A DNA stretch of 64,000 bases from Halanaerobium saccharolyticum. GTDB lineage: Bacteria > Bacillota > Halanaerobiia > Halanaerobiales > Halanaerobiaceae. Shown piece after piece: positions 1 to 25,672 of the stretch. Location of the stretch: contig NZ_SNWX01000009.1 in assembly GCF_004362045.1 (NCBI RefSeq), positions 1,083-65,082 of the forward strand. Reading direction: 5' to 3'. Numbering within the stretch: the first letter of the stretch is position 1; each line of letters opens with the position of its first letter. The translations under genes were made by a program, and so were the position numbers. Below the pieces are notes generated by a model. That model was given only the letters and a program-made list of their open reading frames with translations. It made no database searches and was not told the DNA's origin.

Positions 1-437
1 CTCTTCTGCATATTTCAATATTTTAACCATTTTGTAATCCCTCCATATTTCTGAGATTTCTTGCTTACTTAAAAATTTATCACATAATACAAATGTCAAA
101 GCAACAATATTATTTTTTAAATTTTTTTCTATCTCCAGTTTCTTCTCCAGTTCAATAGTTTCTTTAACCCGTTTAACCATCTTCTGGTCACTCTTCATCA
201 GCGGAAGAAATATTAATTCAAGATAATTAATTTCTTCCCCTTTCTCAATTTTTTCTCTTAATTCTTTCATCTTTTCTTTGCCATCTTTATCAGACATATT
301 AACAACAGTTGTATTATACCCCAGGCTGCCAGCATTAAAAGCTGCCTCTGAAGCTGGGTATCCCTTAATACATAAAATTATGGTCCGAATCCTGTCTCTA
401 TATCTATTATACAACTTTAAGTCATAGGAAGCAAAAC
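1..437 (-). pseudogene. Truncated Rpn-family nuclease copy (copy 1), runs off left edge
   Basis: Nearly base-for-base repeat of the central part of the intact Rpn-type gene at 3062-3952 (matches about 3269-3705). The N-terminal third, including the nuclease core, is missing: after the shared GCAAAAC the sequence jumps directly to a 28-base stretch (about 444-471) that in the intact copy lies upstream of the start codon (about 3993-4020). This is therefore an internal deletion of roughly 290 bp in a duplicated cassette. No start codon lies in frame before the homologous region; translation could only begin internally. The 3' end is outside the window, so the C-terminus cannot be judged. Confidence 0.8.
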
Positions 438-2990: not shown

Positions 2991-3003
2991 TTTCTCTTTA
3001 ATA

Positions 3004-3038
3004 AATAAAACCGGCTGAATTTTTAACTCCAACCGGTG
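3004..3038 (-). terminator. Terminator of the intact Rpn gene
   Basis: On the minus strand ACCGGTTG pairs with CAGCCGGT and is followed by TTTTATTTATT. The same hairpin in diverged form sits 3' of the third Rpn copy (9036-9069), so it travels with the Rpn unit. Confidence 0.65.
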
Positions 3039-3061
3039 TAATTAATATTTTTATATTCAAA

Positions 3062-3952
3062 TTAATGTTTCAAAAAGTCTATTAATTCTGCCTTTGAATT
3101 TGTAGTTACTATTTTTTCACTTAAATCTTCAATTTTATTTAGCTCAGCCTCATTAATTAGAGCAATAATTTCATTATCTGTATCACCAAATTTAGCCTTG
3201 ATTTGCCTCATCAGGATTAATCGTGCTTCTTCCTGTTTCCCTTCAATTTTGCCTTCTATCTTGCCCTGTTCTTCTGCATATTTCAATATTTTAACCATTT
3301 TGTAATCCCTCCATATTTCTGAGATTTCTTGCTTACTTAAAAATTTATCACATAATACAAATGTCAAAGCAACAATATTATTTTTTAAATTTTTTTCTAT
3401 CTCCAGTTTCTTCTCCAGTTCAATAGTTTCTTTAACCCGTTTAACCATCTTCTGATCACTCTTCATTAGCGGAAGAAATATTAAGTCAAGATAATTAATC
3501 TTTTCCTTCTTTTCTATTTTTTCTTTTAATTCTTTCAGCTTTTCTTTACCATCTTTATCAGACATGTTAACAACAATTGTATTATACCCTAGACTGCCGG
3601 CATCAAAAGCTGCCTCTGAAGCAGGATATCCCTTAATACATAAAATTATGGTCCGAATCCTGTCTCTATATCTATTATACAACTTTAAGTCATAGGAAGC
3701 AAAACGAATCAGATCATCAACCGAAACCTCTATTTCTTCTTCTAAATGTAAGATTGATCCATCTTCCAGTTTGAAATTCAAATCCATCCTCTCTGTATTT
3801 GTTTCAATCTCAGCAAATTCAGTCTCCAAATAAGAATCAATTCCAGGCAGCTCCACCTTTAAGAAATCGCCAATATCATTTTTAAAAAGATTAAAAGAGT
3901 CTTTAAAAACAAAATCATAGTTATGAGCTGTAACATCAAACTGTTCCTGCAT
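3062..3952 (-). CDS. Rpn family recombination-promoting nuclease / PD-(D/E)XK transposase-like protein
   Basis: 296 residues. The N-terminal half shows the Rpn / YhgA-like nuclease pattern: FKDSF near residue 16, an acidic MDLNF strand near 56, then LHLEEEIEV, consistent with the D...ExE centre of a PD-(D/E)XK fold. The C-terminal part has the low-complexity GKIEGKIEGKQEEARL segment followed by a helical tail, typical of this family. E. coli Rpn proteins cut DNA and stimulate RecA-independent recombination; that role is inferred here. It is the only intact one of three copies in the window (others at 1-437 and 9087-9520). It has no inverted repeats of a classical insertion sequence. Start ATG at 3952, with only a weak CCTCC-complement site before it. 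Confidence 0.8.
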   Translation of the reverse strand: MQEQFDVTAHNYDFVFKDSFNLFKNDIGDFLKVELPGIDSYLETEFAEIETNTERMDLNFKLEDGSILHLEEEIEVSVDDLIRFASYDLKLYNRYRDRIRTIILCIKGYPASEAAFDAGSLGYNTIVVNMSDKDGKEKLKELKEKIEKKEKINYLDLIFLPLMKSDQKMVKRVKETIELEKKLEIEKNLKNNIVALTFVLCDKFLSKQEISEIWRDYKMVKILKYAEEQGKIEGKIEGKQEEARLILMRQIKAKFGDTDNEIIALINEAELNKIEDLSEKIVTTNSKAELIDFLKH

Positions 3953-4041: not shown

Positions 4042-4075
4042 TAAAAAAACCGCCCCGAAAAAAGGACGGTTAAAA
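4042..4075 (-). terminator. Terminator of the MCP / HD-GYP operon
   Basis: On the minus strand AACCGTCC pairs imperfectly with GGGGCGGTT and is followed by seven T. It lies 3' of the HD-GYP gene and closes the riboswitch-MCP-HD-GYP unit. Confidence 0.8.
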
Positions 4076-4140: not shown

Positions 4141-6528
4141 TCAATCCTCCCTCGACTCATAAATAATCGAGTAAAGATATTCTTTTTCTCCAAAAAGAAT
4201 TGGCTGGCTGTAAACCTCAACATCCCGGATCTCACCATTAAAAAGTTTATGTTTAAAAATAAAATAATTTTTATTTTTCTGCCTGGCTTCCTTCATTTCT
4301 CTGATTACCTCATCTTTTTTTAGTACATTAATATCTGTGATTTCCATTGAAGTCAGCTGATCTTTACTCCAGCCATAAAATTGGATCGTTGCAGGATTTG
4401 CATCAACAATTTTCCCAGTGTCAGGATCAATGATCAGCATTATTGTGAACTCATTTTCGAAAAGCGCCTGATATCTGTCTTTAATATTTTCATACTTTCT
4501 TTTTGTATCTTCCAGCTCAGTTAAATCTCTATAAATAACATAATAACCGGCATTTTCTCCTGCTAAAGAAATCGGAAAAGCCTGGATTGAAACTTCAATT
4601 TTTGCGCCTTCACATTTTTCTCTAATACTGCGGGAACTAACTCTTTGTCCTGCGAGCAGTCTGTCAATATATATTTCTGTTTCCAGCTTTTTGGTTTCCG
4701 GAACTATCTGTTTAATATTTTTTCCAATTATCTTTTTTCTACTGTACTCAAACATTTCAAGAAAATAATCATTTGCCCTTATGATATTAAAGTCAACATC
4801 TAAAATTACAATTCCTTCCTTTGATTCTTCAAATAAATCCTCAAAGTATTCTTTTTTATCCAGAGAATATTTTTCGGTTTGCGAACTATTTATCTCATCT
4901 TTTAAAACATCTTTTTTCAGACTGTCAATTCTGTTGCTTTTTACAATCTGGATAAAGGCTTCCGCCACCTGTGGTGAAAATTGACTTCCCTTATTTTTCT
5001 GTATTTCCTCTAAAGCGGTCTCAATACTTAGAGGATCACGGTATGCTCGTTTAGATAACATTGCATCCCAGGCGTCTGCTACCCCCAGAATCTGTGAGAT
5101 GATCGGGATTTTATCTCCTGCAATTCCTTCTGGATAACCACTGCCATCCCATTTTTCGTGATGATATAAGATATATTCTGAAATAGATTTTAAGGACTCA
5201 GATTTAGAAAGTGCTTCACTACCCCAGACCGGGTGCTTTTTAATCAATTGATATTCGCGCTCAGACAATTTACCCTTTTTATTAATAATATCCAGCGGCA
5301 CTAGTAACTTACCAATATCATGGACAAGTCCTGCCCAGTAGGTGGTTTTGATTGTTTTTTTAGGAAGATCCATTTCTCTGGCGATAGCAGAAGCGATTTC
5401 GGCTACATTTTCCGAATGGCCCTTTGTGTAAAGGTCATAAATCTCCATTATTTTGATAATTGAAGTGATCAATTCTCTGGTAAAGTTAGTCTGCAGATTA
5501 TCAAATCTTTTAAAGGCAAAAAAAACAGAGGCCAGGGTCGAAAAAGATTCCAGGATTTTTCTGGTTGTATCACTAAATTCTCTGCTGCTGCCCTGTTTAA
5601 TATCAAGAGCCAGTCTCCCCACAACCTGGCTGTCAACATCAATATTTATATACAGGGAATCTTTTATCGGTTTTAAAGCCTGCTTTAAAATTTCTCTCTG
5701 AGATGTTTCCATTTTATCAACATTTAAAAAGTAGTCTCTGGTCTGGTAGATATCCTTCCCTTTAAAATTGTAAAATAAATCTTTTTCTATTTCTAACTTT
5801 TTTAATAATTCTATCTCATGTCCGACTGCATCAATAAAAACATAATTATCATTTTGATTAACAATCACCATTTTAGCATAATCTGCTTCAGGAACTATTT
5901 CAATTGCATTTTGCAGAAGATCTGAGAAAAAATCTTCTTCACTCATAAAGGTCTTATTTTCCATATTAGATACGAGCTCTATCATATTTACAAATCTTTG
6001 ATTTAGATTATTTATTTCGGCAAAAGACTGTTCCAGTTCTTCATTCATTGCAATAACTTCTTCGTTATAGGCTGAAAGCTGCTCATTTGAGGCAGCCAGT
6101 TCTTCTTTCTGGTTCCTGAGCTCTATCTCCTGCTCTTTTCGCTCAGTAATATCGATCACAAAACCTTCAATTTTATTTTCATCATTATTTTTTGAAGAGA
6201 CAACTCTGGCATTCATACTTACCCAGAACTTTTCTCCATTTATTTTATATGCCTGATATTCAAAATTTTTAAGCTCATTTTGTTTCTTTAATTTTTCTAA
6301 AAATTCATTTCTTTTTTCTGAATCAACATAAAAGTCCTGACTGAGACACTGATAATTTACTAAAACTTGTTCAACATTCTCAGCTCCCATCATCTCAGCC
6401 ATACTAGAATTAATATATTCGATTTTATCATTAAAAGTGGTTCTAAAAATTCCTATAGGAGCTTGATCAAGAAAATCAAAATACTCTTCTGACATGTTTT
6501 TAGATATATTCCTGTCATAATCACTCAC
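4141..6528 (-). CDS. PAS / HD-GYP / PAS-PAS c-di-GMP phosphodiesterase
   Basis: 795 residues, soluble. Order: PAS (about 18-130), coiled-coil linker (130-175), a GAF-like region (190-345), HD-GYP (about 350-520), then two further PAS domains (about 560-675 and 680-793). The HD-GYP signature is intact: GHSENVA, VHDIGKL, HHEKWDGSGYPEG, VADAWDAM. The expected reaction is c-di-GMP to pGpG or GMP with a bimetal centre. The C-terminal placement of PAS domains after HD-GYP is less usual. The start is a GTG at 6528, nine bases after GGAAG. Only 25 bp separate it from the upstream MCP gene, so the two are likely co-transcribed downstream of the c-di-GMP riboswitch at 8742-8832. Confidence 0.9.
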   Translation of the reverse strand: MSDYDRNISKNMSEEYFDFLDQAPIGIFRTTFNDKIEYINSSMAEMMGAENVEQVLVNYQCLSQDFYVDSEKRNEFLEKLKKQNELKNFEYQAYKINGEKFWVSMNARVVSSKNNDENKIEGFVIDITERKEQEIELRNQKEELAASNEQLSAYNEEVIAMNEELEQSFAEINNLNQRFVNMIELVSNMENKTFMSEEDFFSDLLQNAIEIVPEADYAKMVIVNQNDNYVFIDAVGHEIELLKKLEIEKDLFYNFKGKDIYQTRDYFLNVDKMETSQREILKQALKPIKDSLYINIDVDSQVVGRLALDIKQGSSREFSDTTRKILESFSTLASVFFAFKRFDNLQTNFTRELITSIIKIMEIYDLYTKGHSENVAEIASAIAREMDLPKKTIKTTYWAGLVHDIGKLLVPLDIINKKGKLSEREYQLIKKHPVWGSEALSKSESLKSISEYILYHHEKWDGSGYPEGIAGDKIPIISQILGVADAWDAMLSKRAYRDPLSIETALEEIQKNKGSQFSPQVAEAFIQIVKSNRIDSLKKDVLKDEINSSQTEKYSLDKKEYFEDLFEESKEGIVILDVDFNIIRANDYFLEMFEYSRKKIIGKNIKQIVPETKKLETEIYIDRLLAGQRVSSRSIREKCEGAKIEVSIQAFPISLAGENAGYYVIYRDLTELEDTKRKYENIKDRYQALFENEFTIMLIIDPDTGKIVDANPATIQFYGWSKDQLTSMEITDINVLKKDEVIREMKEARQKNKNYFIFKHKLFNGEIRDVEVYSQPILFGEKEYLYSIIYESRED

Positions 6529-6553
6529 TGAATAACACTTCCTTTTTAAGCTC

Positions 6554-8518
6554 TTACAGATTAAATTTCTTAATCACTTCTGTTAATTCAACTGCCATTC
6601 TTGTTAAATCTTCAGATGCGCTTACAATTTCTTCTGTAGAAGCACTCTGTTCTTCACTGGCTGCTGCTACTTCTTCTGCATTGCTGGCTGCTTCCTGACT
6701 TACTGAAGCAATTTCTTTTATTGTTGCTTCGACATCTTTACCATTGGCACTTACCTTTTCTGAGCGATCATTAATATTCTCAATTAAATCTCTCAAGCTT
6801 AAGGCTGCTGAATTAATTGCTTCGAATGACTTACCTGTATTTCTAATTGCATCAACACTGCCATTTACAACTTCTTCGGTAGCGTCCATCCTGGTTACTG
6901 CACTGCCAACTCCACTCTGGATTTCTCTTACCAGTCCTCCAATTTGATTTGTAGCATCTTCTGATTCTTCTGCCAGCTGTCTTATCTCATCAGCAACAAC
7001 GGAAAATCCACGGCCGGCGTCTCCTGCTCTGGCTGCTTCAATAGCAGCATTTAAAGCTAAAAGATTGGTCTGAGCTGCTATATTATTAATCAAGTTTACT
7101 ATCTCACCAATTTTATTTGATAAGTCTCCCAGATTATTGATAGTATTCGCGATTTCTTTAGTGTTTCCCTTTACGTTTTCTATCTGAGCAACAGAATTAT
7201 CTATTGATCCATTTCCATCCTCAATATTATTCATAACATGATCTGCCTGTTTTTCCATATCTCTGGACATTAAGGTTACATTTTCTATCTGATCTATAAG
7301 CTCATCAATTTTACTGGTTGTTTCCTCTACCTGGGCTGACTGTTCTTCAGCACCAGATGCAACCTGCTGAATAGACTGTCCTACCTGAGTGGCGGCGGTA
7401 GCTACTTCCTCTCCCGAGGCAGATAATTCTTCACTGGAAGCAGAAAGATTTTCGGCAATATTTGCAAATTTAGAAAGTATTTCATTTAGATTTTCTTTCA
7501 TTTTATTTAAAGATGAAGCTAACAATCCAATTTCGTCATTTCTATCTATTTCAAGATCGTCAACTGCCAGGTTACCCTGGGCAATACTGTCAGCCGTTTT
7601 AACCGCTTTAAGAATGGGGTTTGCAATATAACTGGCAATAAAATAAGTTATAATAATTCCAATAAGTAATGCAATTGCTGCTATCCAGATACTCATATTT
7701 CTGGAAGTAACTAATTCTGCCAGCACATCACTTTCGTCTGCTGTCATAGCCACAACCCAGCCTGCCAGTCCCACAGGGGCATAGGCTAATTCTTTTTCGA
7801 CTCCGTTATATGTATATTCTCCTGTTCCAGAACCACCCTGGACCATTTTTTCGGTTAGACTCTGCAGATCAGGCTGTCCCGTTAAAATATCTGTATTACC
7901 TATATACTGGTCCCCTGGATGGGCAATTGTTCTTTTTTGTTGATCTATAATCCAGCCATAGCCAAAACCACCAATCTCCATCTCATTTATTAAAGACTGT
8001 AAGTATTCACTTTTTACTGTCCCCCCCATCACTCCCACCAGGTTATTATTTTCGATTATGGGAACTGCAATAACTATAACCTTATCACCCGAAATTCTAC
8101 TTGTCATCGGAATAGAAATTGCTGTTTTCCCGGTTGAAATTGCTTCCTGAAAGTATTGGCGATCAGAAATATCTATGCTGCCACCATTTAAAATATTACC
8201 ACTACCGGTAGTATCCACTATCAAAATTGATTCGATATCAGGATTATTAAATTGTGATAAAAAATCACTCTGCTCTGACCAGTTCATTGACTTTACCCGT
8301 TCGGCATTCGCAAAATCCTCCATCTGAGCTTTTAAACCAGAAAGCCATTCGAATACAATCTTTGCGTTCTGCTCCGCGCTGTTTAATGAACTATCAGCAG
8401 TTGAATCCTGAATAAGCTCACTAATAAAATTATTAAATGCTGCTGAACTGCCCACCATTAGAATCAGAATCATAACCGCAATAATAAGTATCATTTTCCC
8501 TTTTAAGCTTTTAAACAT
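6554..8518 (-). CDS. Methyl-accepting chemotaxis protein with dCache sensor
   Basis: 654 residues. A membrane segment (about 8-30), a periplasmic dCache-type ligand domain (about 35-275), a second membrane segment (about 280-303), HAMP (about 305-355) and a long coiled-coil signalling domain (about 380-650). The signalling tip carries the classical conserved [20 protein letters not shown] core followed by RGFSVVADE. It would report an extracytoplasmic ligand, perhaps an amino acid or organic acid, to CheA; the ligand is inferred only at family level. Start ATG at 8518 follows GGGGGAG. The transcript begins with a c-di-GMP-I riboswitch and terminator, so expression should respond to c-di-GMP. 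Confidence 0.93.
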
Positions 8519-8679
8519 TTAGTCTCCCCCTTGAATGTTTTAGTTAACTAATATTGACACTAATCTACTTTAACTCAAATGATTATCCTTTTATCTAAAA
8601 TGTAAGTTACTGGTAATTAAATAAACTATAATTTAATCAGTAATCTTTATTAATAAAAGTAATAATTTTCCTGTATTAA

Positions 8680-8720
8680 TAAAAAAAATAAATACTTAAG
8701 CTCTTCTGCCTTAGTATTTA
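8680..8720 (-). terminator. Riboswitch expression-platform terminator
   Basis: On the minus strand AAATACTAAG pairs with CTTAAGTATTT (one bulged base) around a GCAGAAGAG loop and is followed by eight T. It lies directly 3' of the c-di-GMP-I aptamer and about 160 bases before the MCP start, the right place for transcriptional control. Whether c-di-GMP promotes or prevents termination was not resolved. Confidence 0.75.
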
Positions 8721-8741
8721 TTCAATACGATGATAATAATT

Positions 8742-8832
8742 TATCACAGGCAGCCTGGCAGTCATAGATATTAAAATCCCTTAGACCCATAGCTTTGCGT
8801 CACCATTTTTCAATGATTTTGCCAAATATTTA
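8742..8832 (-). promoter_or_regulatory. c-di-GMP-I (GEMM-I) riboswitch aptamer
   Basis: Read on the minus strand, the hallmark elements occur in order: GGCAAA, a hairpin CATT-GAAA-AATG whose GAAA is a GNRA tetraloop, then GGTGACGCAAAGC, then a second arm with TCTAAGG ... CTATGA resembling the 11-nt tetraloop receptor, and finally GACTGCCAGGCTGCC. These match the known class I consensus (GNRA loop docking, conserved GACGCAAAGC core, CAGGxxGCC end). The aptamer binds c-di-GMP. It lies between an extended -10 promoter and a terminator, upstream of the MCP gene. No second copy was found in the window. Confidence 0.92.
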
Positions 8833-8853
8833 GTTGACTTGTTTATTATGTTA

Positions 8854-8862
8854 ATTATATCA
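8854..8862 (-). promoter_or_regulatory. Extended -10 promoter for the riboswitch-MCP operon
   Basis: On the minus strand TGATATAAT (TGnTATAAT) lies about 20-25 bases before the first aptamer element. The -35 region is AT-rich with no clear TTGACA, consistent with an extended -10 promoter. Confidence 0.6.
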
Positions 8863-9035
8863 CATATATAATTAAAATTATACTTCTAAATTCTTACATA
8901 ATAAATCATTTTTCGACAGATTGTTACCAATTAACATCGTCTGTTTAAAGTTTAAGTTCCAAATTCTGTTTTTCGCTCATAATTTTTTCTACAAAATATC
9001 CACATTCCGGTAAAAACATAAACTCCTGAAGCAAA
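8863..9035. other. AT-rich gap between riboswitch promoter and Rpn copy 3
   Basis: No convincing gene. On the minus strand a 23-codon ORF (9014-8943), starting MFLPECGYFVEK and preceded by AGGAG, may be a gene scrap, but it has no recognisable family and is too short to call. Confidence 0.3.
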
Positions 9036-9069
9036 ATAAAACCGGCTGAGGTTTTAATCCCGGCCGGTT
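9036..9069 (-). terminator. Terminator of Rpn copy 3
   Basis: On the minus strand AACCGGC pairs with GCCGGTT and is followed by TTATTTT. It is a diverged copy of the hairpin at 3004-3038, showing that the terminator was duplicated along with the Rpn gene. Confidence 0.65.
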
Positions 9070-9086
9070 AATTTACTTGCTGCTAT

Positions 9087-9520
9087 TTAATGCTTTAAAA
9101 AATCTATTAGTTCTGACTCCGAATTTGTAGTTACTATTTTTTCACTTAAATCTTCAATTTTACTCAGCTCAGCCTCATTAATTAAATTAATGATTTCATT
9201 ATCTGTATCACCAAATTTAGCCTTAATTTGCCTCATCAAAATTAATCTTGCTTCTTCCTGTTTACCCTCAATCTTGCCTTCGATTTTTCCTTCTTCTTTC
9301 CCTTTTTTCTTGCCCTGCTCTTCTACATATTTAAAAAATTTTACCATTTTGCGATCCCTCCATAGTTCTATCATATTTTCACTGCTTAAAAATTTGTCAC
9401 ATAACACTATAGTTAATGCAGCCAAATTATTCTTGAATTTTTGATCGGCATCCAGCTTATCTTCCAGTTCAATAGTTTCTTTAACCCGTTTAACCATCTT
9501 CTGGTCACTCTTCATCAGCG
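9087..9520 (-). pseudogene. Truncated Rpn-family copy (copy 3), C-terminal half only
   Basis: The open frame encodes 142 residues beginning MKSDQKMVKRVKETIEL, aligning to residue 159 onward of the 296-residue Rpn protein; the PD-(D/E)XK half is absent. Similarity stops abruptly at CAGCGGA (about 9520), where the sequence joins the stop region of the GGDEF-EAL gene at 9533. It has diverged from the intact copy (an extra GKKKGKEEGK repeat and several substitutions), so it is older than copy 1. Expression as a small protein is possible but it cannot be a complete nuclease. Confidence 0.75.
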
Positions 9521-9532
9521 GAATCCGCCCAC

Positions 9533-10840
9533 TTATTCCTTTTTTAAAAATTCCTGTTCAAATTCTGCGGCAGGTATTGGTCTGCTGATATAGTAACCCT
9601 GAATTTTATCGCATTTAAGCTTCTTTAAAAGATTCAGCTGGGCAAGTGTTTCTACACCCTCGGCCGTTACCGTTAGTTCCATGTTTTTAGCCAGGTCCAG
9701 GATGGCTTTTACAATACCTGTCTCATAATTATCAACAGTTAAATCCATAATAAATGACCTATCAATTTTTAGTTTATCAATTGGGAATTTCTTTAGATAA
9801 CTAAGTGAGGAGTAACCAGTTCCAAAATCATCGAGTGAGATTTTAATCCCCAGCTCTTTGAGTTTGTTTAATTTTGCCAGCACTAATTCCGGTTCAATCA
9901 TCAAAACGCTTTCGGTAATTTCAAATTCCAACCGGCAGGGATCAACACCTGTCTCCTTAATTATACTCCGGACATCATCAATAAATTTTAATTGTTCAAT
10001 CTGGATACTGGAAATATTTACGGCTACTCTCATTTCCTTATTATAAGAACTACTCCATTCTTTTATCTGCTGACAGGTCTGTCTTAAAACCCATTTTCCA
10101 ATTGGAATAATCAAGCCACTTTTTTCTGCCAGTGGTATAAACTGAGCCGGAGAAATAAATCCCTGTTTGGGATATTCCCAGCGCAGCAGAGCCTCCATGG
10201 TATTTATCTTACCAGTATCTAAAGTCAATAATGGCTGATAATATACTTCCAGTTCATTCTTTTCGACAGCCATTCTGAGATCATTTTCCATAGTTAACTG
10301 CTCTATAAAATTTTCGCTTAAATTGTCAGTAAAGACCTTAAAATCCAGGTCATTTTCTTTAGCATAGTACATTGCAAGGTCTACATTTCTCAATAATATA
10401 CTGATGTTTTCTCCATCATCAGGATAATTGACAATCCCGGCACTGGCTTTAATCTGAAATTCCTGATCAAAATATTCCCACGGTTCTTCTATGGCTTTTA
10501 AAATTTCTCTGCATTTTTGCTTAATTTGTTCTAGATCTTCTAAGTCTACAAAAACAAAAGCAAACTCATCCCCACTAAATCTGGCGACCATATCTTCCGG
10601 GCCCACTAAGTCCTTCATTTTTGCTGCAATATTTTTTAAAAATTTGTCTCCGGCATCATGGCCAAAAGAATCATTAATCAGTTTGAAACGATCAAGATCC
10701 AGATAAATGATACTGAAAGTTTTTTTATCTTTGTTTACCAGTTCTTCGAAATACTCAATAAACCTTGCTCTATTGGGCAGTTCTGTCAGATAATCCTGAT
10801 AGGCCAACACCTTAAGCCTGTACTGCTCGGTAATATCCAT
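9533..10840 (-). CDS. GGDEF-EAL protein (downstream half of a split gene)
   Basis: 435 residues. GGDEF (about 10-170) has an altered signature RFSGDEF and a possible RxxD-position segment that reads GPED, so cyclase activity and the inhibitory site are doubtful. EAL (about 185-430) reads EALLRWEYP, with NISSIQI, EITESVL, DDFGTGYSSL and KIDRSFI, all typical of an active phosphodiesterase. The first codons, MDITEQYRLK, are the usual end of a PAC segment, and the frame remains open upstream through GNIKGLVGII. So this is the C-terminal part of a longer CHASE4-PAS-GGDEF-EAL protein whose front half is 10861-11910. If translated from 10840, no good ribosome site precedes it. Confidence 0.8.
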   Translation of the reverse strand: MDITEQYRLKVLAYQDYLTELPNRARFIEYFEELVNKDKKTFSIIYLDLDRFKLINDSFGHDAGDKFLKNIAAKMKDLVGPEDMVARFSGDEFAFVFVDLEDLEQIKQKCREILKAIEEPWEYFDQEFQIKASAGIVNYPDDGENISILLRNVDLAMYYAKENDLDFKVFTDNLSENFIEQLTMENDLRMAVEKNELEVYYQPLLTLDTGKINTMEALLRWEYPKQGFISPAQFIPLAEKSGLIIPIGKWVLRQTCQQIKEWSSSYNKEMRVAVNISSIQIEQLKFIDDVRSIIKETGVDPCRLEFEITESVLMIEPELVLAKLNKLKELGIKISLDDFGTGYSSLSYLKKFPIDKLKIDRSFIMDLTVDNYETGIVKAILDLAKNMELTVTAEGVETLAQLNLLKKLKCDKIQGYYISRPIPAAEFEQEFLKKE

Positions 10841-12051: not shown

Positions 12052-12647
12052 CTAATTTGATTTAAAGATTTTATCTATATCTTTGCTTACTCTGACATTT
12101 AGTTTTCCTTCTCCAGCCATTCTATTTAATATCTCCACAGCTTCCTGATGACTTAAACAATTTCTATACGGTCTTTTCTCCCTCAGCGCCTGATAAATAT
12201 CTAAAGCTGCTAGTATCTGAGAAGGAAAATCAAGTTTTTCTTCTTTCAATCCTTTCGGATAACCACTGCCATCATTTTTTTCATGATGGTTCCCGGCCCA
12301 TCTAGCTACTTCTTCCAATCCTTCTATTTGTTCTAAAGCTTTTCTGGTATAAAAACTATGAGCCTTTACCTTTTGATATTCCGGTTTGGTTAGTCTCCCT
12401 GGTTTATTTAATATTGAATTAGAAATAGCCAATTTACCCAGATCATGTAGATCAGCAGCAACAATTAATTGCTGCCTCTTTTCTTCACTAAAACCATAAT
12501 GTTCAGCAATTATACTTGCCTTTTCACTTAACTGTTGTGAGTGGTGTCTGGTATACTTTGATTTAGAGTCAATAATCTCAGAAAATATAGCTGTTATTTT
12601 ATGTAAATCTTGATATGAATAATCCACTAAGTAATCAGGACTTTCCC
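12052..12647 (-). pseudogene. C-terminal HD-GYP half of a gene split by an IS3-family element
   Basis: Encodes a complete-looking HD-GYP core: HHSQQLSEKA, ADLHDLGKL, HHEKNDGSGYPKG, ALDIYQAL. The reading frame continues into the insertion sequence (to 12705), so the predicted N-terminus MSLLYYTQ... is element-derived. The host frame resumes on the far side at 14357-14948, which carries a first, degenerate HD domain. Together they would have made a tandem HD / HD-GYP protein of about 395 residues. A truncated HD-GYP protein might still be expressed from a promoter in the element; no ribosome site was identified. Confidence 0.8.
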
Positions 12648-12726
12648 TATGTGTTAGGATAGTTGTCGTGGGGCACAAAATCTGTGTATAATAGAGTAAC
12701 GACAATAAATCCTAAGGAGAATTACA

Positions 12727-14288: not shown

Positions 14289-14356
14289 ATGAGCTTCTGC
14301 AGGAGTGTTATTCAAAGAAATTTTTAACTAAATGCGACAACTTTCTTGACAAACAC

Positions 14357-14948
14357 CGCTTTCTTCTTTTACTGCATCTAATATAAATATATCTTCTAAG
14401 TTAAGCCAAAAATTTTCCTGCTTAATTATCTGCCTAAATGCATTGATCATCCTTTTTGAAAATCTTATGTCTATTTGTTCACTAACCTGAGAAACTAAAA
14501 CACTTCGATCCGGATCCCCATCATAATTTAGCTCGAAAAAATCAGCTAAAGAAATGATCTGAGAAAACAAAGGAATTTCATTGCCCTTTTTGTTGAAGAA
14601 GCCACTACCATCTACGTTTTCATGATGATATAAAATAATATTTTCATATTCACTGATCAGCGGAAATTTATTAATTGTTTTTTCGCCAATCACACAGTGG
14701 CTTTTTGCTTTTTCCAATTCTGATTTACTTACCCCTTTTTTATTTTCAACTCCACCTATATCATGCATTATTGAAAAGGCCAATAATGAAAACTGTTCTT
14801 TTTCCGTTAAATTAAACATCTCTCCCAATTTTAAAGCTATATAAGCCACTCGTTTACTGTGATTGGTAATATCATCTAAGATATCAATCTCAATATAATC
14901 TAAGACAAAAGAAATTGATATTAAAAACTGCTTTAAATTAAATTGCAT
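14357..14948 (-). pseudogene. N-terminal HD half of the gene split by the IS3-family element
   Basis: Begins at ATG 14948. It carries an HD-GYP-like domain with SIMHDIGG, HHENVDGSGFF in place of the usual HHE..DGSGYP, and SLADFFEL. The GYP to GFF change and a shortened tail suggest a degenerate, possibly regulatory, first HD domain. The natural frame reaches DAVKEESG and then runs into the element (to a stop at 14328). The second half is at 12052-12647. Tandem HD plus HD-GYP proteins are uncommon, so the pre-insertion gene would have been of interest. Confidence 0.8.
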
Positions 14949-15597: not shown

Positions 15598-17910
15598 CTA
15601 AATTAAATCATTTTCCATAAATTTAATAAAACCATCTGCTAACTCTGGCTCAAACTGACTGCCGGCACACTCTCTTATTTCTTCCAGAGCCTCATTTTTT
15701 GAAACAGCCTCTTTATAGGGAGCAGCATGAGTCATAACATCATAGGCATCTACTATTGTAATAATCCGGGCCAGATAAGGAATGTTTTCCCCCTGCAGCT
15801 GGCGGGGATAACCACTGCCATCCCAGCGTTCATGATGTGCATAAATATCCTCAGCTATAGTCACAAACTCTTCCGATGAAGAAGCGATTTCAAATCCTGT
15901 CTCAGGATGCTTTTTTACAACTTCCCATTCGATCTCTGTTAATTTCCCCGCTTTATTCAATATCGATTCCGGTATTGTGATCATTCCGATGTCATGTAAG
16001 GTTCCGAGCAGCGATAATCTGTGCAGCTGGGAATTATTTAATTCTAAAAACTTTCCAAATTTATAAGCTAACCCACTCATTCTTTCGGAATGTTCTTTTG
16101 TTTCATTACTCTTCTCATTTAAGGTATTAACCAGGCTTTTTACTATTTTACTCTTCGTACTTCTACTCTCCGATAATTTATTTTGATACATCTCATTATC
16201 TGCCTGTTTTAAAATCTCTGTAAGATCCGGTTCCGGTTTCTGCTTGGCAGCAAGGCCCAGGGCAATTGACACTGTCAGTTCATCATTTTCGGTGTTCTCA
16301 CATTTTTCATTAATCCTGTTTATTATATTTTGAGCATCTTTTTTGCTTGTTTGTGGTAAAATAATTGCAAATTCGTCTCCACCCTGGCGGGCTAAAATAT
16401 CCTCATCTCTCAGGGAAGATTTCAAAATCTCAGCTGTTTTAACTAACAGTTCATCACCTTTTTGATGACCAAAACTATCATTAATTATTTTAAGCCCATT
16501 AACATCAGCCATAATAATACTTACTGGCAGCTGCCGTTCGGTATCCAGTCTTTTCATTTCTTCTTCAAAAAATCTCCGGTTATATAAATCTGTTAGAGAA
16601 TCTTTGTAGAGAAGATATTTAATCTGCTTTTCCTGATGTTTTTGATCATTAATATCCAGGTGGATCCCGACCAGCCTCAGCGGATTTCCCTCCTGATCAC
16701 GTTCCACTATTTTGCCAATACCTCTTATCCATTTTAACTCTCCGGATTTAGTCTGGATGCGATGCTCATTTTCATAAAATTCTTTTCTTCCTTCAAAATG
16801 TTCTTTTAAACTTCTATCAATATTTTCTTTATCTTCAGCAAAAACTAGATCGCGCCAGGTTTTAACATCATTTTCTAATTCTTCTAAATCATATTCTAAC
16901 ATATTGGCCCAGTTTTCATTAAAATTAAGTTCGTCAGTCTTAAAATTCCAGTCCCAGACACCTACGTTTGCGCCTCTGATGGCCAGTTCCAGTCTTTCTT
17001 TGATTTCTTTAATTTCTCTGTCCTTTTTCTTTCTCGCAGTTATATCATCATAAACTGCATAAATCCCTACTTTACCAGTCAGTAATTCAACTTTAATTAC
17101 ATGCAAAGAAAAATATTTGATTTTTCCAGTTTTGGTCTTCCTTTTGACTTCTACTTCTACATTCTTATTCTTTAATACCTGGTTTTTATATTTATAGAAA
17201 TCTTCTTTTTCGGATTCAGGAATTATAAAATTTTCAATATTATTAGCTAACAGCTCGTCTTCGGAATAACCAAAGATTTCTTCAAATTTTGGATTTGCCT
17301 TCAGCACATTATAGTCCTGATCCATCAGAAGTATACCTTCCAGAGATTTATTAAATAAATTTTCAAAAAGTTTTTTCTGATCACTTAACTCTGTCTGCTT
17401 AATCAGCAGCTCCAAATCTTCTTCAATAATTCTTTTGAATTCCTGCAGCAATTTTTTATCTTTACTCTGCAGCTCCAGACTCTTATTATCAAGAATGCAG
17501 ATTGTTCCAAATGATTTTTGATCCGGCCAGCTTATAGGCAGGCCGTAATAAGATATCATATCCAGCCCCACATCAGGATTATCCTTCCAGACTTTATTTT
17601 TTAGAGCATTTTTAATATAGAGTTCTTTATTCTCTGCCAGAACTGTTTCGCAGTACAGGCCATCACCTATTATATTTTCTTCCCCGGTGTTATATGGGTT
17701 TGACTCATTCTGGCTCTTTAGAAAAACTTCTATCGATTCCGCATTTATTTTCATTATTAAAGCAGCCGACACCTCTATCATATCGGTAATTAAGTTTAAA
17801 ATGTTCTGCCATTTACTAACAAATTTTTCGTTTATCTCCGGTTTGTTAAGATCAGTAATTTCGATCTCTTTAAGTTTGTTTTCTCCCCTTGAAAAAACCT
17901 GAGCTCGCAT
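15598..17910 (-). CDS. GAF-PAS-PAS-GGDEF-HD-GYP bifunctional c-di-GMP protein
   Basis: About 770 residues, soluble. GAF (about 25-170), PAS (185-300), PAS (310-430), GGDEF (about 435-595) and HD-GYP (about 600-765). The cyclase signature is ARQGGDEF with RDED five residues upstream (intact RxxD site). The phosphodiesterase signature is TLHDIGM, HHERWDGSGYPRQ and VDAYDVM, so both making and breaking of c-di-GMP are possible, with the balance set by GAF/PAS inputs. AGGAGG lies eight bases before ATG 17910, which I prefer to the GTG at 17916. It lies just downstream of the curli genes but is separated by a terminator, so a link to curli control is only positional. Confidence 0.92.
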   Translation of the reverse strand: MRAQVFSRGENKLKEIEITDLNKPEINEKFVSKWQNILNLITDMIEVSAALIMKINAESIEVFLKSQNESNPYNTGEENIIGDGLYCETVLAENKELYIKNALKNKVWKDNPDVGLDMISYYGLPISWPDQKSFGTICILDNKSLELQSKDKKLLQEFKRIIEEDLELLIKQTELSDQKKLFENLFNKSLEGILLMDQDYNVLKANPKFEEIFGYSEDELLANNIENFIIPESEKEDFYKYKNQVLKNKNVEVEVKRKTKTGKIKYFSLHVIKVELLTGKVGIYAVYDDITARKKKDREIKEIKERLELAIRGANVGVWDWNFKTDELNFNENWANMLEYDLEELENDVKTWRDLVFAEDKENIDRSLKEHFEGRKEFYENEHRIQTKSGELKWIRGIGKIVERDQEGNPLRLVGIHLDINDQKHQEKQIKYLLYKDSLTDLYNRRFFEEEMKRLDTERQLPVSIIMADVNGLKIINDSFGHQKGDELLVKTAEILKSSLRDEDILARQGGDEFAIILPQTSKKDAQNIINRINEKCENTENDELTVSIALGLAAKQKPEPDLTEILKQADNEMYQNKLSESRSTKSKIVKSLVNTLNEKSNETKEHSERMSGLAYKFGKFLELNNSQLHRLSLLGTLHDIGMITIPESILNKAGKLTEIEWEVVKKHPETGFEIASSSEEFVTIAEDIYAHHERWDGSGYPRQLQGENIPYLARIITIVDAYDVMTHAAPYKEAVSKNEALEEIRECAGSQFEPELADGFIKFMENDLI

Positions 17911-18003
17911 TTTCACATCCTCCTCTACCCAAAATTTATGGATTATCTCCTTTATTGTAACATTTTTTTAAGATTTTTGCAGTATTTGTTGCTTTATAAT
18001 AGC

Positions 18004-24640: not shown

Positions 24641-25672
24641 TTATTCTTTTAATTTTACAGCTTTTTCTGCTTCTTCAACATCTTTAACCAGGCTTATAAT
24701 ACTCAGTTCACTTTCGTCATTAAGATCAATATAATTTTCGTCAACCCTGACAATTGGTGATTCTGGATTCCGGGAGTTGATAAAAACAATTACCGCTCTC
24801 TCTCCATTACTCAATTCTACCTGATCACCGATTAAAGAATAAGGGATTTTTTCGATAAAAAGTGATTTTAACTTATGATCAAAGGAATTAAAATCTTCTT
24901 CCAGCATTTTAACAGCGGCAAAAGGTGAAACTGATTTCTGGTAGGGACGATCGGTAGTTACCGCATCAAAGGTATCACAGATGGCGATGATTCTCCCAAA
25001 AAGAGGAATTTTTTTGCCTTTTAATCCCAGGGGATAACCGCTGCCGTCATATCTTTCGTGATGAGTTAAAATCCCGGCCATAATACTTTTGGAAAAGCGG
25101 TTGCTTTTTTTAAGCAGCTGATAACCATACTGGGAATGCTTTTTTGCTTCTTCGTATTCTTCCTCTGTCAGAGCTTCTGGTTTATTTAAAATCGCTTTTT
25201 TTATTTTACTTTTGCCAATATCATGCAGCAGAGCAGCAGTCGTCAGGTTGCTGAGTCTGCCTTCATTTAAATGCAGCCATTTACCAAATTTATTGGCCAA
25301 AATACCCACATGTAAGGAATGAGAATATGTATAATTATCAATATCACGGGTCATTTTTAAAGTATCTTCCAGATCAAGATAATCAGAGATTTCCATTGCC
25401 TCTTCGGAGAGGCTTTTTACTGTTTTAAAGTCAACCTTTTTCATATAATAAGCTTTTTTATAAGTTTCCGAAAAATCTTCCAGGTTCTGCTGATACTTTT
25501 CTCTGGCGATTTTTTTCTTATTTATCTTCTCTTTTATTTCTTTTTCTGTTTTAACTTTAATTTCTTTAATATCCATATTTTTTAATTGTGCAATCAGACG
25601 CCTGTTAAGCTCAGTCCCGGGAGGGATTAAGACTCCTCCAAACTCACTTCGTACTTCCTCATCAATTATCAT
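24641..25672 (-). CDS. HD-GYP domain c-di-GMP phosphodiesterase
   Basis: At least 343 residues. An N-terminal DUF3391-like segment, a helical linker (55-120), then HD-GYP (about 120-285) with HSLHVG, LLHDIGKSK, HHERYDGSGYPLG and ICDTFDAV, and a small C-terminal beta domain (290-340). The ATG at 25672 has no ribosome site. In frame upstream is VKVEDLKSGM, the conserved start of this family, reaching back to ATT ATT TCT at 25717-25709, three to six bases after GGAGAGG. No ATG, GTG or TTG is available there, so initiation at AUU (25714) is possible. A -10 TATAAT lies at 25757-25762. Confidence 0.88.
   Translation of the reverse strand: MIIDEEVRSEFGGVLIPPGTELNRRLIAQLKNMDIKEIKVKTEKEIKEKINKKKIAREKYQQNLEDFSETYKKAYYMKKVDFKTVKSLSEEAMEISDYLDLEDTLKMTRDIDNYTYSHSLHVGILANKFGKWLHLNEGRLSNLTTAALLHDIGKSKIKKAILNKPEALTEEEYEEAKKHSQYGYQLLKKSNRFSKSIMAGILTHHERYDGSGYPLGLKGKKIPLFGRIIAICDTFDAVTTDRPYQKSVSPFAAVKMLEEDFNSFDHKLKSLFIEKIPYSLIGDQVELSNGERAVIVFINSRNPESPIVRVDENYIDLNDESELSIISLVKDVEEAEKAVKLKE

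Follow-up and report, generated by a model that had tools for sequence, protein, structure and literature searches.

When a riboswitch for a second messenger precedes genes for a chemoreceptor and for an enzyme that would destroy the same messenger, in which direction does the resulting feedback run, and is the enzyme truly part of it? This question is raised by a 64,000-nt stretch of the Halanaerobium saccharolyticum genome (contig NZ_SNWX01000009.1, positions 1,083 to 65,082; hereafter the window), in which a class I riboswitch for cyclic dimeric guanosine monophosphate (c-di-GMP) stands ahead of a gene for a methyl-accepting chemotaxis protein (MCP) and a gene for an HD-GYP domain protein. 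The genome (G000; 3.36 Mb in 79 contigs) has its nearest visible relatives in the Halanaerobiales. The account favored here, with moderate confidence, is that of a transcriptional OFF switch resembling Cd1 of Clostridioides difficile, which would govern the MCP and the predicted HD-GYP phosphodiesterase as a two-gene unit. An earlier note on this DNA had named the parts of such a locus, and all of them were found where it had placed them (Table 1).

The aptamer, its predicted ligand and the two genes

The class I aptamer that the earlier note had described as complete in its conserved parts, and for which it had proposed an Infernal search, matches RF01051 over the entire model (positions 1-87) with 74.4 bits, well over the gathering score of 35 (E = 9.5e-13). 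In the numbering of the Vc2 structure, the ligand-contacting bases are in place as G20 (window position 8823), A47 (within CUAA) and C92 (8750), the last followed by C93 (8749), and a GAAA tetraloop closes the stem formed by AUCAUU and AAUGGU. Every feature of the family that can be checked in a sequence is present, and c-di-GMP is the predicted ligand; G20, A47 and C92 are, as read from the aptamer, the bases of the c-di-GMP-selective form, and the window aptamer has G where GEMM-Ib, selective for 3',3'-cyclic guanosine monophosphate-adenosine monophosphate (cGAMP), has its hallmark A20. The extended -10 promoter claimed ahead of the aptamer is present as an exact element, with no -35 element scoring well in the consensus scan upstream of TGATATAAT; extended -10 matches are common by chance in this DNA (26 seen against 21.2 expected in the same scan). 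Orthologous switch leaders occur in two sister species, G003 and G007, making three leaders in total, and their -10 hexamers read TATAAT and TACAAT, respectively.

Behind this leader lies an intact MCP gene whose product has its sensor, HAMP and signaling domains all over the Pfam cut-offs, as anticipated (PF02743, dCache_1, 4.1e-27; PF00672, HAMP; PF00015, MCPsignal, 4.8e-43). The second protein is composed of a PAS domain, an HD_5 domain (PF13487; 131.2 bits against a cut-off of 27.2, 4.3e-38) and two further PAS domains, and its HD, KKHP, HHEKWDGSGYP and VADAWDAM motifs align with the solved enzymes 5z7c and 4mcw. The metal ligands (HD, H, HH, D) and the GYP motif are thus present, and the protein is probably a phosphodiesterase, the role earlier assigned to it. 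It has the HD, H, HHE-DGxGYP and D motifs in common with PmGH and related HD-GYP enzymes (4mcw, 4r8z, 5z7c), and differs from them in the PAS domains that flank its predicted catalytic domain. The gap between the two genes is 25 nt, as previously given, with a Shine-Dalgarno-like AAGGAAG just ahead of the HD-GYP gene, and this spacing suggests a single mRNA for both; the terminator said to close the HD-GYP gene was also located.

A competing reading holds that the natural ligand or substrate at this locus includes 3',3'-cGAMP and not c-di-GMP alone. Among solved structures, the one that best matches the HD-GYP domain, 5z7c, is a cGAMP phosphodiesterase, and position 20 is A in the orthologous aptamer of G007 and in about 40% of the aptamers of the genus (12 genomes compared), most of the others having G. 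The window aptamer itself, however, carries G20, and the next-best solved relative, 4mcw, is an HD-GYP enzyme of the c-di-GMP type. A20 has been tied to cGAMP recognition and selectivity in Geobacter (PMC6456294), whereas in Cd1 the equivalent G11-to-A change made little difference (PMC9262584), and a part for cGAMP here is considered very improbable. Within the genus, A20 is found in all pilus-operon aptamers but one, which has C, and in several flagellar-operon aptamers.

Table 1. Parts of the putative switch-controlled locus, numbered from the first nucleotide of the window
Feature	Position	Strand	Basis
Extended -10 promoter element TGATATAAT	8854..8862	-	Direct reading of sequence
c-di-GMP-I riboswitch aptamer	8746..8833	-	RF01051 by cmscan; whole-genome search agrees
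Candidate antiterminator 5' strand CUGCCU, holding C92 and C93	8748..8753	-	Predicted pairing with 8711-8706
Candidate antiterminator 3' strand AGGCAG, which overlaps the terminator 5' arm in its upper part	8706..8711	-	Predicted folding and three-leader comparison
Leader intrinsic terminator, a hairpin (8723-8686) with a U tract reaching 8681	8681..8723	-	-12.9 kcal/mol hairpin
MCP, 654 aa, dCache-HAMP-MCPsignal	6554..8518	-	Pfam domains
PAS-HD-GYP-PAS-PAS protein, 795 aa, GTG start, predicted c-di-GMP phosphodiesterase	4141..6528	-	Pfam and motif alignment
Intrinsic terminator at operon end	4048..4071	-	9-bp stem with 5 GC pairs, then T run

Leader folding and the polarity of the switch

The leader contains, 3' of the aptamer, the terminator hairpin and U tract that had been proposed there, which the consensus terminator scan did not pick up because the hairpin is AU-rich. 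It begins 27 nt past C92, has no overlap with the aptamer in any of the three orthologs and is preserved in both G007 and G003. In folding predictions it forms whether or not the aptamer is imposed as a constraint, and in the full-length RNA the constrained aptamer is compatible with it. This anatomy supports the earlier claim of control by readthrough, in which the effect of c-di-GMP is predicted.

The candidate antiterminator is a helix in which CUGCCU, the aptamer strand that holds C92, is able to pair with AGGCAG, enclosing two small hairpins. In length-scan folding, C92 is captured downstream with p 0.92-1.0 at transcript lengths of 141-157, a range that opens after GGC(AG) has emerged and closes before the terminator is complete. 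The G007 and G003 leaders share this design: the antiterminator helix keeps 94% of its pairs with one double change (C-G to U-A in G003, where two other pairs become U-G), and for the whole three-helix structure 94% of cells pair across the three leaders, compared with 34-53% when the partners are slid.

Two characterized switches offer a guide to polarity. In the Cd1 OFF switch the terminator can form alongside the aptamer, and the ligand-binding C is engaged by the antiterminator, whereas in the pilM ON switch the aptamer and terminator exclude each other (PMC9262584). The window leader differs from pilM in this coexistence and resembles Cd1 in its aptamer family, in a terminator set apart from the aptamer, and in a predicted antiterminator that pairs the ligand-binding C; unlike Cd1, it stands ahead of MCP and HD-GYP genes instead of a flagellar operon, and its OFF polarity is predicted where that of Cd1 is reported. 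Because the terminator lies outside the aptamer and the antiterminator would capture C92, the modeled leader points to an OFF switch and to a positive loop, and OFF polarity is held to be quite probable.

In the proposed mechanism, when c-di-GMP is absent the aptamer 3' strand CUGCCU, with C92, would pair with AGGCAG in the terminator 5' arm and polymerase would read through; when c-di-GMP is bound, C92 would be kept in the aptamer, the terminator arm would be released, the terminator would form and both genes would be repressed. Low c-di-GMP, as in the motile state, would consequently give more receptor and more phosphodiesterase, and c-di-GMP would stay low. Such a loop would be positive and reinforcing, not homeostatic, as high c-di-GMP would lower the enzyme that removes it.

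Several results weigh against this polarity. Among 60 shuffles of the expression platform that kept its dinucleotide content, 12 match the observed capture of C92 or of G20/G21, so that folding probability alone does not prove the antiterminator, and C92 capture was downgraded as proof of polarity after this control. The covariation score is reached by 75 of 500 column shuffles and, with only three orthologous leaders in existence, is not significant. The ligand-free window RNA is predicted at full length to fold as the terminator, and readthrough must therefore depend on co-transcriptional folding; in the length scan of the G003 leader, moreover, the antiterminator is less clear. The same length-scan approach gave no clear polarity for the flagellar and pilus switches of the genus.

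The opposite polarity would have c-di-GMP favor readthrough and induce the enzyme that destroys it, making the loop homeostatic. Its precedent is Bc1 of the Bacillus cereus group, a c-di-GMP-I ON switch ahead of the MCP gene mcpE; its platform is long and has two terminators, and no phosphodiesterase gene is described with it in the text consulted (PMC11218506). Bc1 resembles the window switch in its position ahead of an MCP gene and differs from it in polarity and platform, and an MCP under c-di-GMP-I control is already known. In the window leader, inspection suggests a weak A/U pairing between the aptamer 5' strand UAUUU and the terminator 5' arm AAAUA, and in the fold predicted for G007 the terminator 3' arm is the partner of the aptamer 5' strand. 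Since aptamer-constrained RNA still forms the terminator, however, which stands clear of the aptamer in each ortholog, it is hard to see how bound ligand would block it, and an ON switch is regarded as unlikely.

The chemoreceptor and HD-GYP genes among relatives

The switch and an orthologous MCP gene occur together in three species, namely in the window genome, in G007 (MCP 89% identical) and in G003 (two pieces, 80-88% identical, with a TAG in frame). Downstream of the MCP the three diverge. In G007 there is a scar in which the first HD-GYP codons are fused to pieces of the region encoding its C-terminal PAS domain (86%, 91% and 79% DNA identity to the HD-GYP gene over 57, 70 and 67 nt), and a PAS-GGDEF gene comes next. 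In G003 the MCP gene is followed at 81 nt by a GGDEF gene, and no HD-GYP remnant was seen downstream of the MCP. By this comparison, the MCP is the conserved target of the window switch, whereas conservation does not extend to a loop through HD-GYP.

The G007 scar indicates that the ancestor shared by G007 and the window genome had the HD-GYP gene, which was then lost in G007. A new insertion of the gene in the window genome was rejected on the evidence of this scar, which lies right after the MCP, and of MCP/HD-GYP pairs in three other genomes: G006 (24-nt gap), G001 and G012, the last belonging to another genus, with an MCP sensor domain 60% identical to that of the window MCP. None of these pairs has a switch in front, and the pair is for that reason probably older than its link to the window switch. 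In G012, a c-di-GMP-I aptamer lies 3' of the HD-GYP gene, ahead of a GGDEF-EAL gene. A DUF4351 gene region is present in three copies (window 2-437, cut by the window edge, 3003-3952 and 9034-9523; another of the three truncated) that are 78-95% identical in DNA and flank the gene cluster here, and they may be points of rearrangement between relatives.

These comparisons bear on a further alternative, that the switch in practice controls the MCP only, with HD-GYP a passenger or served by its own promoter, and that no meaningful loop exists. Beyond the scarred or missing HD-GYP gene in the sisters and the switchless pairs, this alternative draws on the 15 matches to the window HD-GYP protein in G000, among which one enzyme may matter little. 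Only the window genome combines the switch, the MCP and an intact HD-GYP gene, for which reason conserved linkage was rejected as proof of the loop. A possible promoter, either within the MCP gene or in the region from the leader terminator to the first codon of that gene, counts against the two-gene reading. The short intergenic gap with its AAGGAAG, and a second switch that couples a predicted phosphodiesterase to an MCP in five species, argue in the other direction, and control of the MCP alone is thought rather doubtful. The feedback loop of the earlier note is plausible; its sign, which the note had left open, would be positive by the anatomy of the leader, while its HD-GYP arm is not conserved in the sister species.

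A second switch and the wider distribution

RF01051 aptamers number six in G000 and 53 across the genus, one of them under the cut-off, with at least one in 11 of the 12 genomes. By inspection, the genes behind them include a flagellar flgB-type operon, a pilB-type operon, MCPs and c-di-GMP enzymes. Tandem aptamers were noted in three members of the genus, at L168 (G008:C21), L208 (G010:C222) and L197 (G006:C22). In the order as a whole, MCP genes lie behind c-di-GMP-I switches in four additional genomes, and genes for c-di-GMP enzymes do so in several.

The second switch of G000 (G000:C7:59096-59170, listed with L170:11005-15004) lies ahead of a gene for a 662-aa protein with a degenerate GGDEF and an EAL domain, a predicted phosphodiesterase with the motifs EALLRW, DDFGKGYSS and EGVEE, which is followed by a gene for a 656-aa dCache MCP 47% identical to the window MCP. 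This arrangement is kept in five species (G000, G003, G007, G008 and G009), although the EAL gene of G003 has stop codons. Its terminator is again outside the aptamer, and GCCC at the terminator is a possible pairing partner for the aptamer 5' strand GGGC, which includes G20/G21. Like the window operon, it places a phosphodiesterase and a dCache MCP behind a c-di-GMP-I switch predicted to be OFF; it differs in having an EAL enzyme, in placing the enzyme gene first and in drawing its candidate antiterminator (GGGC/GCCC) from the aptamer 5' strand. The independence of this locus implies, at the level of gene content, that a switch over a phosphodiesterase and a chemoreceptor recurs with two enzyme families, and its retention in five species supports the idea of a loop better than the window locus does. 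In the literature searched, which left the original GEMM discovery and specificity papers outside its scope so that prior reports are possible, an MCP and a phosphodiesterase under one switch with two enzyme families was not found.

A third G000 switch precedes a gene that we read as FapA-like and a gene for a 185-aa HD protein, with relatives in two more species. A review describes the control of c-di-GMP metabolism genes by c-di-GMP riboswitches as rare (PMC6366702); two G000 switches over a phosphodiesterase and a chemoreceptor, and the third over the FapA-like and HD genes, qualify this statement.

The window holds further c-di-GMP features. A dense cluster of genes (987-25672) encodes PAS-GGDEF (987-2234), GGDEF-EAL (9533-10840), HD-GYP (12052-12705), HD (14328-14948), GGDEF/HD-GYP (15598-17916) and HD-GYP (24641-25672) proteins; the GGDEF-EAL reading frame and the CHASE4 frame before it (11910-10861, minus strand) resemble one sensor gene split by a frameshift or stop. 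A curli-type operon (21567-18065, minus strand), encoding two curlin-repeat proteins, CsgF, a 171-aa protein with no assignment and CsgG, is preceded at about 25 nt by a c-di-GMP-II-GAG riboswitch (RF03169, 42.3 bits; 21679-21593, minus strand), and G007 lacks the block at the corresponding place. A second RF03169 copy, on contig C18 (92-179), precedes another gene cluster for small proteins of secreted type.

Taken together, the two operons allow the tentative proposal, held with less than even confidence, that the genus recruited OFF switches twice, with unrelated phosphodiesterases (HD-GYP and EAL) and two different antiterminators, coupling a chemoreceptor to c-di-GMP removal in a self-reinforcing and possibly bistable motile state. 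The natural series among the relatives (intact operon, HD-GYP scar, no HD-GYP) provides a ready comparison for whether the loop matters. Should the switch indeed be OFF, c-di-GMP would close a positive loop on itself through RNA, no protein regulator being involved, and the motile and sessile states could be bistable.

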